NCBI GenBank assembly: GCA_017420455.1
Contig: JAFOJB010000031.1
Span: forward strand, 1 to 5,021
DNA: 5,021 bases
Source: Blautia sp.
GTDB taxonomy: Bacteria; Bacillota; Clostridia; Lachnospirales; Lachnospiraceae
Direction of reading: 5' to 3'
Shown: piece by piece, positions 1-5,021 of the stretch
Layout of the letters: each line of letters begins with the position of its first letter
How positions within the stretch are numbered: position 1 is the stretch's first letter
Program-made: the position numbers and the translations under genes
Notes under the pieces: generated by a model
Told to the model about the DNA's origin: nothing
Database searches by the model: none
What the model saw: the letters and a program-made list of their open reading frames with translations, nothing else

Positions 1-81
1 ATTCAGCTTTTCAGGACTTTCCAGTTTTTCCAGGTTCTTCTCCCGAAACAGGGACTGCTTTTTTTCCGTGTTATCTGCCAT
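1..81 (-). CDS. N-terminus of a putative NHLM-type bacteriocin secretion protein (HlyD-like), cut by the window edge
   Basis: Only the first 27 codons are present; the gene continues beyond the left edge. The peptide starts MADNTEKK and continues SLFREKNLEKLESPEKLN. From memory, the pattern LFR-[KE]-x-LE-[KR]-x-x-SPE-[QK]-L near the N-terminus is typical of the HlyD-like membrane fusion proteins of NHLM bacteriocin systems (TIGR03794 type), which precede a membrane anchor and partner an ABC transporter-peptidase. No membrane segment is reached here, so the call rests on this short cytoplasmic tail. The ATG at 79-81 is preferred because GAGGAAA at 94-100 lies upstream, although its 12-nt spacing is long. 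An in-frame ATG at 100-102 would add seven residues (MRKAGAH) but has no Shine-Dalgarno sequence. A promoter at 130-158 directly precedes the gene, so it probably begins its own transcription unit. Confidence 0.6.
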   Translation of the reverse strand, partial: MADNTEKKQSLFREKNLEKLESPEKLN

Positions 82-129
82 ATGCGCACCCGCTTTCCTC
101 ATAATTGATAAAAAAGAGTAATTACTACC

Positions 130-158
130 ATTATACATACTGAAGGAGGCTTTCGCAA
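130..158 (-). promoter_or_regulatory. Sigma-70-type promoter for the left-edge secretion gene
   Basis: On the minus strand a perfect -10 box TATAAT (130-135) follows a -35 box TTGCGA (153-158, four of six consensus bases) at the optimal 17-bp spacing. Transcription would begin near position 123, giving a leader of about 40 nt before the ATG at 79-81. The site lies after the large hairpin at 231-301, so the secretion gene can be transcribed independently of the phosphatase and ABC genes. Seen directly in sequence; activity is inferred. Confidence 0.7.
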
Positions 159-230
159 GCTTTCCAGTGCAAAACATACCGGTGTGCTCTTCCCGGATTG
201 CAGCTCACGGCCTCGCCGTTGGGGAACACA

Positions 231-301
231 GGGGGAAACACAGGGGGACGGTCCTTTTGTGTTTTTTGAACACAAAAGGACCGTCCCCCTGTGTTTCCCC
301 C
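231..301. repeat. Large perfect inverted repeat (33-bp stem, 5-nt loop), REP/BIME-like element
   Basis: Positions 231-263 pair perfectly with 269-301 around the loop 264-268 (TTTTG). Each arm carries the core GGGGGACGGTCCTTTTGTGT. A further GGGGAACACA at 221-230 partly repeats the stem base GGGGGAAACACA, so the element looks assembled from short duplications. This GGGGACGGTCCTTTTGTG-like sequence is of a kind I recall as a dispersed intergenic repeat in Clostridia; such REP-like elements are often mobilised by RAYT-type TnpA proteins, but none is encoded here. It lies 42 bp past the phosphatase stop codon and before the promoter at 130-158. In RNA it would form a very stable hairpin that could protect or end the upstream transcript, but no T-run follows on either strand. 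Confidence 0.85.
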
Positions 302-308
302 AGAATGA

Positions 309-335
309 GAGAAAAAGGAACCGTCCCCTTTTCTC
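309..335. repeat. Half-copy of the same repeat family, forming its own hairpin
   Basis: The stem GAGAAAA (309-315) pairs with TTTTCTC (329-335), with one bulged A and a further GG/CC pair, around the core GGAACCGTCCCC. Read on the minus strand the core is GGGGACGGTTCCTTTT, nearly the same as the GGGGACGGTCCTTTT core of the 231-301 palindrome and in the orientation of its right arm. The base of the stem differs (GAGAAAA in place of ACACAGG), as expected for a related but separate element. It begins 8 bp after the phosphatase stop codon. Confidence 0.6.
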
Positions 336-343
336 TTTTCTCG

Positions 344-1033
344 TCACTCCTCTGCAGAACGGAGAAGATACTGATCTCCTTCGATGAGCATCCCTGTAAG
401 GCTGCCTCCTTTTCCGCAGCCGGTATCGATACAGATGGTACCGGTCCGGGGCAGGCTCTGCCATTTCTCTGCGGGAAGCTTCTCTGCAGTCTTTTTGTCG
501 CCGGCGAACCAGACAGCAGAGGGAAGGGCAATGTGCCCGGTGATGGCCAGAGGGCCTTTGTAGCGGTTCTCCAGAACAATGTCATGATCATGCAGCAGGG
601 TGTAAAGGTCATTGACCTCAGGTGGAAACACCACCATGCCGGCATGGACGCAGCAGAAGCGCGGATCCTTATAGAACAGTACCGAATGCTCCTGAAGCCA
701 CGAGGCGCAGTCCTCCATTCTTTCACCGTGTTCCTGGAAAGACCTTACGGTCGCCATACGACCTACCCGGTCCCACATCATTCTCATGGGAATGGTCATC
801 TTTTTCTGGAAGAGATAATCCTCATGATTTCCCCGGAGAAGCACAAAGCGGTCCTGCCAGGCTGCCTCCAGCTTCTTTACGTCCTGCAGCACCTGCCAGG
901 AATCCGGTCCACGGTCGAAAAGATCCCCCAGCAGAATGAGCCTGTCTTCTGCGCTCCCCGGATCAAATTTCTGAAGCAGCCTCCGGAGAGCGCCGCTGCA
1001 GCCATGTATGTCGCCTATGATCAACGTTCTCAT
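344..1033 (-). CDS. PPP-family metallophosphatase (serine/threonine phosphatase or ApaH/PrpA-like)
   Basis: A 229-residue cytoplasmic protein with the complete PPP metal-binding signature: GDIHG at 7-11, GDLFDRG at 36-42, RGNHE at 67-71, VHAG at 129-132, GH at 166-167 and a C-terminal IDTGCGKGG at 202-210. These residues bind two metal ions that activate water for phosphoester hydrolysis. Length fits the small bacterial PPP enzymes, which include protein phosphatases of the PrpA/PrpB type and Ap4A hydrolases; sequence alone does not fix the substrate. The start lies 3 bp after the ABC stop codon and has GGAGG inside the end of the ABC gene, so the two are probably cotranscribed and coupled. 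Next to two HPr-kinase-like genes, an attractive inference is that it removes phosphate from the peptide or protein those kinases modify. Confidence 0.88.
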   Translation of the reverse strand: MRTLIIGDIHGCSGALRRLLQKFDPGSAEDRLILLGDLFDRGPDSWQVLQDVKKLEAAWQDRFVLLRGNHEDYLFQKKMTIPMRMMWDRVGRMATVRSFQEHGERMEDCASWLQEHSVLFYKDPRFCCVHAGMVVFPPEVNDLYTLLHDHDIVLENRYKGPLAITGHIALPSAVWFAGDKKTAEKLPAEKWQSLPRTGTICIDTGCGKGGSLTGMLIEGDQYLLRSAEE

Positions 1034-1036
1034 ATA

Positions 1037-2716
1037 TTACTGTTCTCCTCCGTTTTCCAACATCATTTTTCCGCCGGCAAGATGGAGGGTATAATCGCAG
1101 ATCTCCAGGGCTGCCTTCCGATGCGTGACAATAATGCAGGTCTTGTCGCGCATGACGGAAATATTCCTGAGCAGCCTGGCTTCCGTCTCCTCGTCCAGAG
1201 CGCTGGTAGATTCATCCAGAAGAAGGATGTGAGCATGTCCCAGAAGCGCCCTGGCAACAGCCACACGCTGGGCCTGGCCTTCCGACAGACCGACGCCCCG
1301 TTCTCCAAGTACCGCGTCCAGCCCGACTTCCTCCACCAGATCTTCAATACATGCCGCCTTTACAGCCCGCCCTATCTCTTCTTCACTTGCCCTGTCCGTA
1401 AACATGGTCAGATTGTCCCGCAGAGTACCGGAAAACAGCGTATTTCCCTGCGGAACATAGGCAAACAGTCCCCTTGTTCCGCGGCAGGCCGGTACTTCCC
1501 TGGCGCCAAGCCGGAACAGAAGGCGCCCCGATGTAGGCTTATAAATCCCCAGAAGCAGCTGGAACAGAGAAGTCTTCCCCCCGCCGGACATTCCGGTGAG
1601 GGCCATGAAATCCCCTTTCCGTATGGTCCAGTTGATGCTCTGCAGAACCTCCTCTATGCCGTCGTCATATTTAAAGGTGATATTCTCCAGGGAAATGGCG
1701 TCGAAATCTGTCAGCACTTCTCCCTCTTCCTCTGCGGGAAGATCCGTGAGCTCCAGAAGACGCTCGGCGGAGGAGATCACGCCATAGGCCTGCCCGGCAA
1801 TACTTACCGCATTTGCGATGGGCGTTTCAATGCGTCCGATGAGCTGAAGCATGGCTGCCAGGGAACCGTAGGTCATGTTTCCGTGAAAGATGTTCATGCA
1901 CCCCCAGACCATGCAGAACAGCCAGGATAGATCGAAAACCAGAGCCATACTGTCGTTCATTCCGAAGCTGAACATCCCCTGCCGGATCTGTTCGGTCCGC
2001 AGGTTCTCCTGATATCCCTGAATCTGGCGCGCGGTCCTCTGCTCGGAAACGCTGGATTTGATCAGACGGATATTCTCCAGGGATTCCTGCGCAGAAGCAT
2101 GCAGGGCTCCTTCCGCCTCCTGCATTTTTTTATGCCGGCGTTTCATGGGTCTTCTGAAAAGCAGCACCAGGGCAAGACCTGCCATACCGCCGACTGCCAT
2201 CAGAATAATAAAATGCCAGTCCATGGCGATCAGAATTACCGACGCGCCTGCAAAGCTTACGATAATACTGATGAAATTCGGCAGGATATTCATGACACCG
2301 TTGCGTACCACGGAAACATCGGAAAATACCCGGTTCACCAGTTCCCCGCTGTGATATCCCTTGAGCATTGCATATTCCTTGGTCAGAAGCTCCTGTACCA
2401 GCATCCCCTGCATGGATTTCTGCAGGTCCGCGGAAGCATAGACACGGCACCAGGATTTGACCGCTGCCAGAAAATGCTGAAACAGCAGGAGCAGCCCCAG
2501 CAGGACGGCGAATTTTTTCACCTGATCCAGGTTGGAGGACACTGCTCCGTCCACCAGATTTTTGGTCAGCAGACTGAAGAGCAGCGAAGTAACCGAAGTC
2601 ACGACTGTCAGAAAGCAGATGATGAAAACTTTCAGCCGGACACCCTTTGTCCAGCGGAACACCGCAGAAAGGCCGGGACTTCGAAAGACCGACCTGAGCT
2701 TATGCACATATTCCAT
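1037..2716 (-). CDS. ABC exporter, fused membrane and ATPase domains, no peptidase domain
   Basis: A 559-residue half-transporter. The N-terminal part holds hydrophobic segments near residues 29-51, 68-85, 146-188 and 258-276, matching a type-I exporter membrane domain. The ATPase domain follows at about 340-559: Walker A GMSGGGKTS (375-383), Q-loop VPQ (421-423), signature LSEGQ (477-481), Walker B and catalytic Glu ILLLDES (497-503), D-loop SALD (505-508) and H-loop His532. All catalytic motifs are intact, so it should be active as a homodimer. It lacks the roughly 150-residue C39 peptidase found in transporters that cut double-glycine leaders, so leader removal would need another protein, for example an NHLM transporter-peptidase beyond the left edge. 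Size resembles the exporters of lasso and other peptide clusters that give transport or immunity. The start is supported by AGGGGG 8 nt upstream of ATG. Substrate unknown. Confidence 0.9.
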   Translation of the reverse strand: MEYVHKLRSVFRSPGLSAVFRWTKGVRLKVFIICFLTVVTSVTSLLFSLLTKNLVDGAVSSNLDQVKKFAVLLGLLLLFQHFLAAVKSWCRVYASADLQKSMQGMLVQELLTKEYAMLKGYHSGELVNRVFSDVSVVRNGVMNILPNFISIIVSFAGASVILIAMDWHFIILMAVGGMAGLALVLLFRRPMKRRHKKMQEAEGALHASAQESLENIRLIKSSVSEQRTARQIQGYQENLRTEQIRQGMFSFGMNDSMALVFDLSWLFCMVWGCMNIFHGNMTYGSLAAMLQLIGRIETPIANAVSIAGQAYGVISSAERLLELTDLPAEEEGEVLTDFDAISLENITFKYDDGIEEVLQSINWTIRKGDFMALTGMSGGGKTSLFQLLLGIYKPTSGRLLFRLGAREVPACRGTRGLFAYVPQGNTLFSGTLRDNLTMFTDRASEEEIGRAVKAACIEDLVEEVGLDAVLGERGVGLSEGQAQRVAVARALLGHAHILLLDESTSALDEETEARLLRNISVMRDKTCIIVTHRKAALEICDYTLHLAGGKMMLENGGEQ

Positions 2717-2781
2717 TCGCTTTTCCCCCTTTCACAGCATCGAAAAGCATCCCCGGCAGAGACGTTTCTGCGATGACCAAA

Positions 2782-2810
2782 GAAAGGGAGCTGTATAAAG
2801 GCTCCCTTTC
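2782..2810 (-). terminator. Short GC-rich hairpin between kinase and ABC genes, possible attenuator
   Basis: GAAAGGGAGC (2782-2791) pairs perfectly with GCTCCCTTTC (2801-2810) around a 9-nt loop. On the minus strand the hairpin is followed by only TTTGG, so it is a weak intrinsic terminator at best. It sits in the 225-bp gap between the second HPr-kinase-like gene and the ABC gene, where it could reduce read-through or stabilise transcript ends. I see no convincing promoter or gene in the rest of that gap. Confidence 0.4.
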
Positions 2811-2941
2811 GTCGTTCCGTTCCTTCCTGGTACATTCCAGCGCCATCTGTCTGTCCGTACAGGTATGGTATTGACACGGCTTTTCACATCGGATTTTCGC
2901 CGCATTCCTCATCCGGTGAGGCCGCGGATTGTAATGTATTT

Positions 2942-3661
2942 TCAGTCCTCCCCGCTCATGCAGCGGTAAGCAGTCCTTGCGGCCTCGCTTTCCATGGTGC
3001 AGCCCAGCCTGTAAAAAGCCGTCCGCTCCAGCATGACTTTCTCCAGATTCATGACCTTCTGAAGGGAGGCCGCTTTCGACGGTTTATAGGCATTGGTCAT
3101 AAGAAGCGGAAAAACCTTCCGCCTTTCCATGGGTTCTATATGGTTTACCTGGTCTCTTTCCAGAAAAGCGACAGCCTGCAGCGGCGCGCACGCGTTCCGC
3201 CCCAGGTGATGCTTCCCGCACCAGGGGGAACCATATACCATGATCTCCTCCTTCTGAACCCGGAGCAGTGGTTTGTCGTCATTGATCATCCACACCCTGT
3301 CCCCGAATTCTTCCCGCCAGAGCCGGGCGTGAGTACTCTTTCCCGTCCCGCTCTTTGCCGCGAAAAGATATGCCTTTCCATCCATGCACAGGGCAGAGCC
3401 ATGAAACAGGAGGACATCAAAATCCAGAAGCTTCTCTGCCAGAAGGGCATGGATCGTATTGTTTTCCAGAAAAATTGCCGAATATTCTGTATGACGCCCT
3501 GTCATGGCATCCAGTTCCCTCTGCATGGCAAGAATATCTTCCACAGATGGTTCGATTGTCAGGACAGGTTCTTTATCTGAACGGTATTCCCTCAGGAATC
3601 GTCTGTTTTCTTCAAATTCACACCGGATCTCCACCGGGACTCCTGCTATCTCAATCCTCAT
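2942..3661 (-). CDS. HPr-kinase-like P-loop protein, second of a tandem pair
   Basis: A 239-residue cytoplasmic protein. The core resembles the catalytic domain of HPr kinase/phosphorylase: FHGSA (86-90), a short strand-turn, the P-loop AAKSGTGKST (101-110), NDDKPLLR (127-134) with the paired acidic residues seen in HPr kinases, and GSPWCGKHH (144-152). The N-terminal 80 residues carry no motif I recognise. HPr-kinase homologues in peptide clusters are known to phosphorylate peptides, for example the lasso-peptide kinases of the paeninodin type, so a role in modifying the small peptide encoded at 4615-4848 is plausible but unproven. The gene begins 6 bp after its paralogue ends, in the context TGATAAAGGATG, which points to translational coupling; AAGG directly beside the ATG is a poor ribosome site alone. 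A genuine HprK would be over 300 residues and is usually paired with lgt, not seen here. Confidence 0.75.
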   Translation of the reverse strand: MRIEIAGVPVEIRCEFEENRRFLREYRSDKEPVLTIEPSVEDILAMQRELDAMTGRHTEYSAIFLENNTIHALLAEKLLDFDVLLFHGSALCMDGKAYLFAAKSGTGKSTHARLWREEFGDRVWMINDDKPLLRVQKEEIMVYGSPWCGKHHLGRNACAPLQAVAFLERDQVNHIEPMERRKVFPLLMTNAYKPSKAASLQKVMNLEKVMLERTAFYRLGCTMESEAARTAYRCMSGED

Positions 3662-3667
3662 CCTTTA

Positions 3668-4435
3668 TCACCGCGGCTTTGCTGTTTCCCAGGCAGCCCT
3701 CAGGCCTTCTCCGGAGAGGGGGCTTCTGAAACGATAGATCTTTACCCGTCCCTCCAGACTCTTCAGGAGCAGAAGTGTCCTTTGCAGGCTGACAGCCCGT
3801 TCAGGCTTGTACGTCTGTTCCAGAAGTTTAAAGTAACCTTCCAGGGTATCGATCGCCTCCAGGCTGCTTTTCTCTCCGGGTTCTGTTCTTTCCAATAAAA
3901 AAACAGCCTGCAGGGGAACAGCTGTATTCACATTCCAATGTTCCTTGCCGCTCCATGGCGTCCCGCAGGCATAAGCCCTTCTGCTGTCCAGCCTGATCAG
4001 CGGTTTATCCCCGTTTACGATAAAGGAACCGGGAAACTCTTTCAGCCACAGCTCTGCCCGGGTAGTCTTCCCCGTGCCGCTGGGAGCCGTGAACATATAG
4101 GCAGATCCTTCATAGGCTGCCACAGCCCCATGCATCAGGAACGTATCGAAACGAGGCAGATTCTCACAGATCTTACGGTGCACAGCGCCGGTCTCCAGAT
4201 ATCCGGGATCGAAATAATGGTAGATCTCTTCATCGCTTACCGGGAAGCAGCCCTGCGCGGCATCGTTCTCCCGCATGATATTCCGGGGAACAATGTCCAC
4301 AAGAAAAACAGGGGGACCCTGTTCCTCCTCCGGTGCGAGATACTCCTTGCAGAATATCCGGCATGTCTCATGCAGGGAGCGGATCTCGATCAGCCTTCCG
4401 GCCAGCTTTATCCGAAATATATATTTATTCTCCAT
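3668..4435 (-). CDS. HPr-kinase-like P-loop protein, first of a tandem pair
   Basis: A 255-residue paralogue of the next gene, with the same order of motifs: MHGA (101-104), P-loop APSGTGKTT (117-125), NGDKPLIR (141-148), GTPWSGKEHW (158-167) and a similar C-terminal half (PLQAVFLLER; YKPERAVSLQ matching YKPSKAASLQ). Its N-terminus also aligns (AGRLIEIR with AGVPVEIR). The first Asp of the NDDKP pair in its partner is Gly here; in HPr kinases the catalytic Asp lies in such a pair, so activity or specificity may differ. The reading frame opens upstream at a TTG (4460-4462), but that codon lies in a hairpin and has no ribosome site. The ATG at 4433-4435 is chosen instead, although its GGGGG is only 2 nt away, so initiation may be weak. 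It follows the peptide gene by 179 bp, across a probable terminator. Confidence 0.75.
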   Translation of the reverse strand: MENKYIFRIKLAGRLIEIRSLHETCRIFCKEYLAPEEEQGPPVFLVDIVPRNIMRENDAAQGCFPVSDEEIYHYFDPGYLETGAVHRKICENLPRFDTFLMHGAVAAYEGSAYMFTAPSGTGKTTRAELWLKEFPGSFIVNGDKPLIRLDSRRAYACGTPWSGKEHWNVNTAVPLQAVFLLERTEPGEKSSLEAIDTLEGYFKLLEQTYKPERAVSLQRTLLLLKSLEGRVKIYRFRSPLSGEGLRAAWETAKPR

Positions 4436-4451
4436 AACCCCCGATATCTGC

Positions 4452-4488
4452 AAAAGCCACAAGAACCAGATCAGTGGTCCTTGTGGCT
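4452..4488 (-). terminator. Leaky terminator or attenuator between peptide gene and kinase genes
   Basis: Positions 4455-4463 pair with 4480-4488 (core GCCACAAG/CTTGTGGC), then one mismatch, then ACCA (4465-4468) with TGGT (4475-4478) around a 6-nt loop. On the minus strand the stem is followed at once by TTTTG, a short but usable U-run. A partial terminator after a peptide gene is a common way to make precursor in excess of its processing enzymes. No promoter is evident between this hairpin and the kinase ATG only 16 bp beyond it, so the downstream genes probably depend on read-through. Confidence 0.65.
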
Positions 4489-4528
4489 GGCAGACAATTA
4501 TGCGATTTTCTTATAATTCTCTGATATT

Positions 4529-4581
4529 TTCAGATCTGTTCTGATTCTGTTCAGATCTGTTCTGATTCTGTTCTGATTCTG
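4529..4581. repeat. Tandem 21-bp repeat (two exact copies plus a half copy) downstream of the peptide gene
   Basis: The unit TTCAGATCTG followed by TTCTGATTCTG occurs exactly at 4529-4549 and again at 4550-4570; the 11-bp half TTCTGATTCTG recurs at 4571-4581. Degenerate forms extend on both sides (TTCTCTGATATT before, CTCAGATTTTCTCTGAT after), so about 4518-4598 is repeat-like. The motif CTGAT is shared with the repeat upstream of the peptide gene. No reading frame or RNA gene is evident. Confidence 0.8.
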
Positions 4582-4614
4582 CTCAGATTTTCTCTGATCC
4601 ATACAGGTATCGGA

Positions 4615-4848
4615 TCAGGTCCAGATGATTCCTGCGCTCAGCATGGCCTTCAGAGTATCGACATCCGACATGCCCTGATTGATCATGCAGTCCTTCATGA
4701 AATCAACAAATGCCCTCTTGTCAGAAAAATGAAAATAGTGGTTGCCGTTCAGACCACAGGCACCTTCACCGCCAAACCAGGTATATGTCAGGTTACCGCC
4801 TACAACTTCATCCATTAAGTCATCTTTCAATTCTACACGATTGCTCAT
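4615..4848 (-). CDS. Putative double-glycine leader peptide precursor (RiPP or bacteriocin-like)
   Basis: A 77-residue acidic-leader peptide. Residues 1-18 (MSNRVELKDDLMDEVVGG) form a classical double-glycine leader with hydrophobic positions at Leu7, Leu11, Val15 and Val16; cleavage after Gly18 would release 59 residues starting NLTYTW. The core is glycine- and aromatic-rich at first (FGGEGACGLNGNHYFHF), then probably helical, and ends AGIIWT. It has two cysteines (31 and 54), which could form a disulfide, and seven Ser/Thr including a C-terminal Thr. It lacks the Ser/Thr/Cys density of lanthipeptides or thiopeptides. A second GG (26-27) follows Trp24-Phe25. The start is secure: AGAGG (4856-4860) lies 7 nt upstream of ATG. 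It is the first gene of the presumed operon and precedes the kinase pair. It could be a class II bacteriocin, a modified peptide or a secreted signal; I cannot assign a named family. Confidence 0.75.
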   Translation of the reverse strand: MSNRVELKDDLMDEVVGGNLTYTWFGGEGACGLNGNHYFHFSDKRAFVDFMKDCMINQGMSDVDTLKAMLSAGIIWT

Positions 4849-4891: not shown

Positions 4892-5021
4892 TGATACCTA
4901 CGAAACTGATACCTATGAGAATGATATCTCTGAAACTGATACCTGTGAAATTGATATCTGTGAAACTGATATCTCAGAACTGATATCTCTGAACTGATAT
5001 CTCTGAACTGATATCTCTGAA
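4892..5021. repeat. Tandem 15/14-bp repeat array upstream of the peptide gene, running off the window
   Basis: Nine units begin with TGATAYCT: five of 15 bp starting at 4892, 4907, 4922, 4937 and 4952, then 14-bp units at 4967, 4981, 4995 and 5009, the last cut by the edge. The 15-bp consensus is TGATAYCTNTGAAAC; the 14-bp form is TGATATCTCTGAAC and becomes identical towards the edge (4981-5008 are exact copies). Most units hold the palindrome GATATC. There are no spacers, so this is not a CRISPR array. The array ends 43 bp before the peptide start codon, so it occupies the expected promoter region. I find no clear -35/-10 pair in it or in 4849-4891. Confidence 0.85.

Follow-up and report, generated by a model that had tools for sequence, protein, structure and literature searches.

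A conserved double-glycine peptide beside two divergent HPr-kinase-like proteins in Blautia may represent a further layout of HprK-type phosphopeptide pathways

The window analysed here, a 5,021-bp stretch of a Blautia sp. genome (assembly GCA_017420455.1, contig JAFOJB010000031.1), encodes on its minus strand a 77-residue peptide with a double-glycine leader followed by two HPr-kinase-like proteins (K1 and K2), an ABC exporter, a metallophosphatase and a sixth gene that the contig end reduces to a 27-residue start, so that the row of six genes described in the original prediction is present in full order. The peptide belongs to a strongly conserved family and there are indirect signs that its relatives co-occur with those of K1 beyond their own genome. 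We consider it about an even call that the core of the peptide is phosphorylated by the two divergent HprK-like proteins, after which a C39/NHLM-type exporter removes the leader and secretes the product. Because the window is the entire contig (C259, in a genome of 593 contigs that is 78% complete), extension is not possible on either side; its left end overlaps none of the other contigs of the genome (best match 28 bases at 86%).

The peptide belongs to a rare, conserved double-glycine family

A search of 5.8 billion proteins returned 26 clusters of peptide homologues of near-constant length, and their alignment with the window's own sequence (27 sequences in total) contains 20 invariant columns, including the GG pair, C31, C54 and the invariant hydroxyl residues T21, Y22 and T65. 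The open reading frame (ORF) is therefore more than a chance one, and the proposed double-glycine precursor is real, with its leader kept and two invariant cysteines. Double-glycine leaders follow the pattern L-12, L/M-7, V/I-4, G-2 and G-1; all 27 sequences fit it, with Leu, Ile or Val at position -12. None of them carries the [Y/W]xxPx (YxxPx) motif bound by the recognition element (RRE) of ribosomally synthesized and post-translationally modified peptides (RiPPs), and none ends in Ser, the last residue being Lys, Thr, Arg, Pro or Leu.

The peptide matches no Pfam or NCBIfam model. Its AlphaFold model has a mean predicted local distance difference test (pLDDT) score of 73 (low confidence for the leader, moderate for the small core of residues 18–77) and gave no significant match in the PDB (best E 1.9), where a sequence comparison found none either. 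The family is rare: phage and plasmid records hold no relative at E 1e-5, a scan of genome_contigs with two short patterns (which may omit records near the own genome) returned none, nor did a pattern-based scan of viral contigs, and a literature search by peptide motif found nothing.

Relatives of the peptide and of K1 share contig sizes

Since none of the other genomes searched yielded the peptide, its co-occurrence with other genes was judged by the equal size, in bp, of the contigs on which the relatives lie. Four of the 26 peptide clusters match the contig of a K1 relative exactly (1,945, 5,713, 11,514 and 20,263 bp), against a mean chance expectation of 0.23 obtained with jittered sizes; for contigs of at least 5 kb, where three of eight were observed, the expectation is 0.02. 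All four matching kinases fall within K1's 22-row clade and none among the other 98 of the best 120 of the 926 clusters matched in the kinase homologue search (Fisher p 0.0009). If the 1,945-bp match is a single contig, a peptide and a K1 relative lie side by side on it. The check set out in the original prediction, which looked for co-occurrence of the peptide with both kinases and the phosphatase, thus came out positive, indirectly, for the K1 clade and negative for the phosphatase, where none of the best 120 relatives lies on a contig equal in bp to that of a peptide cluster.

K1 and K2 are divergent HPr-kinase-like proteins

Neither K1 nor K2 has a match at E <= 1 in the Pfam copy searched. 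In NCBIfam, TIGR04249 (ScmC) is matched weakly by both (1.7e-4 for K1 and 4.5e-5 for K2) and HprK-related kinase A by K2 only (0.013), in each case below cut-off, while PF27840 is precomputed on most K1 homologues among the matches listed; the genome's single match to PF07475 (HPr kinase/phosphorylase) sits on contig C20. What justifies the label "HPr-kinase-like" is therefore the fold predicted for K1 together with the catalytic residues of both proteins: the K1 model has the PEPCK/HPr-kinase fold, the P-loop, His and Asp are present in K1 and K2 alike, and none of the 231 aligned relatives departs from the His, the Walker Lys or the Asp. Fold prediction covers K1, and K2 was assigned by its residues; together they support the earlier description of two such proteins. 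The two are 36% identical and lie in different clades, so they are not recent duplicates.

A K1 profile found nothing among PDB sequences at E <= 0.001 (best 0.04), and viral contigs hold no K1 relatives. A PHROGs match of K1 to a clamp loader (0.0059), which runs across the P-loop, was taken as P-loop similarity and the kinship rejected. Elsewhere in the same genome, on contig C358, locus L007 (1861–2932) holds a third HprK-like gene and, overlapping it on the downstream side, a frame that encodes a PqqD domain; what appears by eye to be a sensor histidine kinase lies nearby.

Related kinases sit in neighbourhoods that resemble a known gene set

Linear Polyphosphorylated Peptides (LPPs; LppA-K-B-S-D-N) were described in Nat Commun in 2026, and the accessible part of that paper gives their gene set as a signal-peptidase-like protein (SpI), an RRE, an HprK-like kinase, a nucleotidyltransferase (NTP transferase) and an MsbA-like transporter (PMC13381572). 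We examined the surroundings of related kinases in two sets, 109 loci in all: the best 80 of 174 confirmed relatives, from named genomes, within a 5-kb range, and 29 loci from members of the family with 1.5-kb flanks. Within 5 kb of the kinase, 50 of the 80 loci have a PqqD-type RRE, 42 a signal-peptidase-like protein, 18 NTP_transf_5 and 22 an exporter relative (a count that takes in generic ABC ATPases); the 29 loci gave 19, 19, 7 and 11, respectively. One example of the signal-peptidase-like protein matches the archaeal-type signal peptidase I model TIGR02228 (1.9e-6, below cut-off). In the 80 loci a second kinase within 4 kb was never seen, nor was any relative of C39, the peptide or the phosphatase, and the 29 contained no tandem kinase, C39 or phosphatase. 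Because contig ends cut many of the 80 loci, the positive counts are lower bounds and the zeros are weaker than they look. (Single-linkage clustering of the neighbours, which placed 118 ORFs from 72 loci in the kinase cluster, was exploratory and the counts were made without it.)

The surroundings of the kinase family thus generally resemble the LPP gene set. A strict pattern for the LPP-type precursor motif was found in none of the 109 loci and a loose one only in a single chance-like ORF on the strand opposite the kinase, so the neighbourhood is LPP-like by its enzymes and not by a proven precursor. The possibility that Gly-Asp in place of Asp-Asp marks a dead kinase was considered and set aside, since kinases with both RRE and SpI nearby number 21 of 51 in the Gly-Asp group and 35 of 58 in the Asp-Asp group. 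At two loci (L108, 1486–3351, and L109, 695–2560) the HprK-like kinase is fused to a radical SAM/SPASM protein in a 621-residue product, followed by a 78-residue precursor candidate with a YITPKV motif; the product there may be a RiPP that carries phosphate as well as radical SAM modifications. Our literature search found nothing on HPr kinases with PqqD and radical SAM.

Export genes within and beyond the window

The exporter of the window matches PF00664 (ABC_membrane) and PF00005 (ABC_tran) over cut-off and has no C39 match in Pfam, which bears out its earlier reading as peptidase-less; MsbA is among its best NCBIfam matches, below the cut-off of that model. It also matches the defence model mad3 (3.8e-22, residues 473–546) and, weakly, mad8; we took these as generic ATPase similarity and rejected a defence role, and the other four window proteins matched none of the defence models.

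The 27 residues at the end of the gene row are similar to the N-terminus of a short protein from contig C461 of the same genome (FREKNLEKLESPEKLN against FRKKSIDRISSPEELN), which directly precedes a gene scoring 923 bits for NHLM_ABC1 (cut-off 853) and, after it, an NHLM_ABC2-like gene (703 bits, just below the cut-off of 709). The NHLM label is likely and not firm, since the match of this short protein to TIGR03794, the NHLM HlyD model, is weak (3.1e-5, below cut-off; the control was positive in all 14 genomes). The start of an NHLM-type gene in the original prediction is made likely by resemblance to the C461 protein and falls short on the HlyD match. Two C39 proteins are seen in the genome, on C461 and on C370. 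The C370 exporter scores 898 bits for NHLM_ABC1, over cut-off, and is accompanied by a second, ABC2-like gene truncated by the contig (396 bits, under the cut-off of 709). The first gene of C370 begins 62 bases from the contig end and the gene before it is therefore missing; by elimination, C370 is likely to continue the window across a short gap.

PqqD matches over cut-off number five on other contigs of the genome and none in the 5-kb window, whose contig is cut on both sides; four of these contigs (C111, C436, C181 and C176) have no gene tying them to the cluster. On C111 and C436, which have a PqqD match each, genes that by eye are radical SAM/SPASM-like (L137, 2130–4042, and L138, 2041–3397) lie next to candidate precursors with YFTPEV or YVTPKV in the leader. 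An SpI-type peptidase was found neither in the contig nor in the 78%-complete genome, in a search run without a positive control.

A proposed pathway and its alternatives

In the pathway that we propose, K1 and/or K2 would phosphorylate the ~59-residue core of the linear precursor, with T21, Y22 and T65 as candidate sites and perhaps a division of labour between the two proteins. A C39/NHLM exporter, for which the C370 protein is the likely candidate, is predicted to cut the leader after GG and secrete the peptide, and a C31–C54 disulfide may form. The proposed order is modelled on the LPP and paeninodin-type pathways, in which an HprK-type kinase precedes leader removal; here a GG leader would stand in for the RRE-binding one, and a C39 exporter for the SpI-type or B2-type peptidase.

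Several observations weigh against this pathway. The main difficulties for phosphorylation are the missing RRE in the contig and the missing invariant Ser: no Ser is invariant in the core across the 27 sequences, and the accessible part of the LPP paper reports that LppK left S3T and S3Y variants unmodified (PMC13381572). Kinship to LppK is judged from gene content and predicted fold. Neither K1 nor K2 matches PF07475, and K2's Asp-Asp pair reads Gly-Asp in K1, a Gly that recurs in 171 of 231 aligned rows. The peptide was seen only in its own genome among 64 genomes of the genus, 397 of the family, 391 of the class and 392 of the order (samples that overlap). Although three of the ten K1-clade contigs of at least 5 kb (the window's excluded) match a peptide contig, seven do not, which may mean that small genes were overlooked in assemblies or that the link is not universal, and the contig-size test itself covered K1 and the phosphatase. 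Finally, the link to C370 comes without sequence overlap, in a genome that is itself incomplete, and the reading frame ahead of the first C370 gene is too small for identification.

The first of the alternatives, which we regard as doubtful, is that the peptide stays unmodified, as a two-cysteine signalling or bacteriocin-like molecule, and that the kinase-like proteins are mere neighbours acting elsewhere, for instance on an LPP-like substrate beyond the contig. The strongly conserved core, modelled moderately well over residues 18–77 as a self-folding disulfide peptide might be, would suit it, as would the lack of an invariant Ser, the strong hairpin between the peptide and K1, and the seven longer K1-clade contigs without a peptide match. 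Against it stand the four of 26 peptide clusters that share an exact contig size with K1-clade kinases, in one case a contig of only 1,945 bp.

The phosphatase was the basis of another claim of the original prediction, that of a kinase/phosphatase pair. PPP-type phosphatases are marked by the motifs GDxHG, GDxxDRG and GNH(E/D), and all are intact in this protein, which also matches PF00149 (Metallophos) and a NinI-like Ser/Thr phosphatase model; its identification as a metallophosphatase is therefore sound. A switch in which K1 and K2 phosphorylate and the PPP enzyme dephosphorylates the peptide at about the time of export would draw on these matches and on the position of the gene, which begins 3 bases past the exporter stop codon. 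The pair did not emerge as a conserved unit, however: phosphatase relatives were missing from all 80 related kinase loci (many of them cut by contig ends) and from all 29 with 1.5-kb flanks, the contig-size test that gave four matches for K1 gave none for the best 120 relatives of the phosphatase, and a single contig of a phosphatase relative equals a kinase contig in bp when 1.6 are expected. One relative, 97% identical, lies on a contig of 15,841 bp. With over 3,000 relatives the phosphatase is a common enzyme and, since the close spacing to the exporter is the sole positive evidence, a conserved switch is not supported; we consider this reading unlikely and the membership of the phosphatase in the system doubtful, as an optional part or a mere neighbour.

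Two further explanations appear still less probable. Phosphate might serve as a leaving group, K1 and K2 activating Thr for an outside enzyme that eliminates it to give dehydro-residues or thioether rings with C31 and C54. The core does have invariant Thr and Cys, but we know of no part for HprK-type kinases in phosphate-elimination chemistry and the contig contains no lyase or cyclase match; the kinase-plus-lyase chemistry itself is established in class III lanthipeptides, according to the accessible part of PMC10604976. Just as improbable is an ordinary LPP cluster with its RRE and SpI peptidase beyond the contig end, which would accord with a contig cut at both sides and with a kinase and MsbA-like exporter, both core components in the accessible part of the LPP paper (PMC13381572), but not with the GG leader that replaces the RRE-binding motif in 27 of 27 precursors, nor with the lack of an SpI-like match in the 78%-complete genome, searched without a positive control.

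Returning to phosphorylation by the two kinases followed by C39/NHLM export, a more far-reaching form of it can be put forward only tentatively: a new class of disulfide-containing, ~59-residue GG peptides, phosphorylated on invariant Thr or Tyr by a divergent HprK pair without an RRE, in which the phosphate would either gate C39 export or result from it and the PPP enzyme would reset it. Within this same tentative proposal, one kinase would follow the peptide lineage and the other would have been recruited from the radical-SAM/RRE lineage.

Gene layout and non-coding elements

The coordinates of the genes and non-coding elements are collected in Table 1. The peptide ORF is preceded by GAGG. 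The start of K1 was taken as the ATG at 4435, which gives the same length as record P0027 (255 residues), whereas the mechanical ORF list begins K1 at a TTG (264 residues); 6 bases separate its stop from the start of K2.

Table 1 Genes and non-coding elements of the 5,021-bp window
Feature	Description	Position	Strand	Basis
Precursor peptide	77 aa; leader MSNRVELKDDLMDEVVGG (4795–4848), 59-aa core	4615..4848	-	ORF, alignment
Precursor core residues	Invariant C31, C54, T21, Y22, T65	within 4615..4848	-	Alignment
Hairpin	14-bp stem then UUUU, between peptide and K1	4455..4488	-	Folding of 81-nt segment
K1	HprK/PEPCK-fold kinase-like protein, 255 aa; H102, Walker K123, D143 (NGDKP)	3668..4435	-	Model, alignment
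K2	HprK-like protein, 239 aa; H87, Walker K108, D128-D129 (NDDKP)	2942..3661	-	Residues, tree
Exporter	MsbA-like ABC exporter, permease + ATPase, 559 aa, no C39 match	1037..2716	-	PF00664, PF00005
Phosphatase	PPP/ApaH-like metallophosphatase, 229 aa; membership in system doubtful	344..1033	-	PF00149
Palindrome	33-bp stem, 5-base loop, between phosphatase and last gene	231..301	-	Folding, terminator scan
Last gene	Likely NHLM-type HlyD-like protein, first 27 residues, contig-cut	1..81	-	Resemblance to C461 protein

The hairpin between the peptide and K1 has a z-score of -5.96 in its 81-nt segment, with 0 of 200 shuffles equally good, and is absent from the terminator-scan list that does include the 33-bp palindrome. 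A leaky terminator behind the precursor gene is a common route to a surplus of precursor over enzyme, and this hairpin is possibly one that leaves the precursor in excess. The gap between K2 and the exporter holds a weaker hairpin (z -1.42). The palindrome folds with -69.5 kcal/mol for an 86-nt segment; its 20-base half is exact in only two of 140 loci, both in the own contig, and no multicopy element is therefore shown. Tandem repeats lie on both sides of the peptide gene, upstream at 4904–5021 (period 15, about 8 copies) and downstream at 4529–4598 (periods 11, 21 and 32); they are possible regulatory sites or a possible assembly-breaking repeat.

Comparison with known systems

In the literature searched, in which subscription papers and bioRxiv preprints are poorly covered, the titles and abstract openings among the matches listed contained no description of this arrangement in its double-glycine form. 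If the pathway is correct, HprK-type phosphorylation extends to double-glycine bacteriocin-type peptides without an RRE, maybe with two kinases. A single conserved peptide family with few candidate sites means that the question of phosphorylation can be settled, and kinase-like proteins near double-glycine peptides are worth searching for in mining pipelines.

Export of the NHLM/NHLP type (TIGR03794, TIGR03796, TIGR03797) is suggested by the likely HlyD-like start in the window and by the C39 exporter and second ABC gene on C370. Its precursors have nitrile hydratase-like or Nif11 leaders, unlike the short GG leader found here. The HprK–radical SAM fusions of L108 and L109 have a kinase domain of K2's clade fused to a RiPP maturase, and a further locus (L031, HprK-rSAM-PqqD) has a kinase of the same clade near RiPP maturases; the window differs from all three in being without a radical SAM enzyme. 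Lasso, lanthipeptide and YcaO enzymes are absent from the six genes of the contig by Pfam and NCBIfam, as had been noted before. Phosphorylated lasso peptides of the paeninodin type are on record with the kinases PadeK, ThcoK and PsmK, and the accessible part of PMC9266682 has the kinase act on the linear precursor before maturation, as proposed here; in contrast to those systems, the six genes of the window (in a cut contig) include no lasso macrolactam cyclase or B1/B2 proteins, and the peptide family has no C-terminal Ser.

The LPPs, as far as the accessible part of their description goes (PMC13381572), offer a comparison on both sides. LppK is required for phosphorylation at core Ser3, and the window shares with the LPPs an HprK-like kinase and an MsbA-like exporter beside a small precursor, with no macrolactam cyclase seen. 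It differs in having two divergent kinases where the described lpp cluster has one, a double-glycine leader without YxxP in place of an RRE-binding leader, and a likely NHLM HlyD start as well as a C39 exporter located on a different contig. RRE, SpI and NTP transferase genes are absent from the contig, and the core has no conserved Ser. The original prediction had called a kinase-modified peptide that is not a lasso unusual; non-lasso targets of such kinases are already known from the LPPs, and what sets the present case apart is its double-glycine layout with a second kinase lineage. The cluster would therefore be a further layout of HprK-type phosphopeptide pathways and not a separate category.

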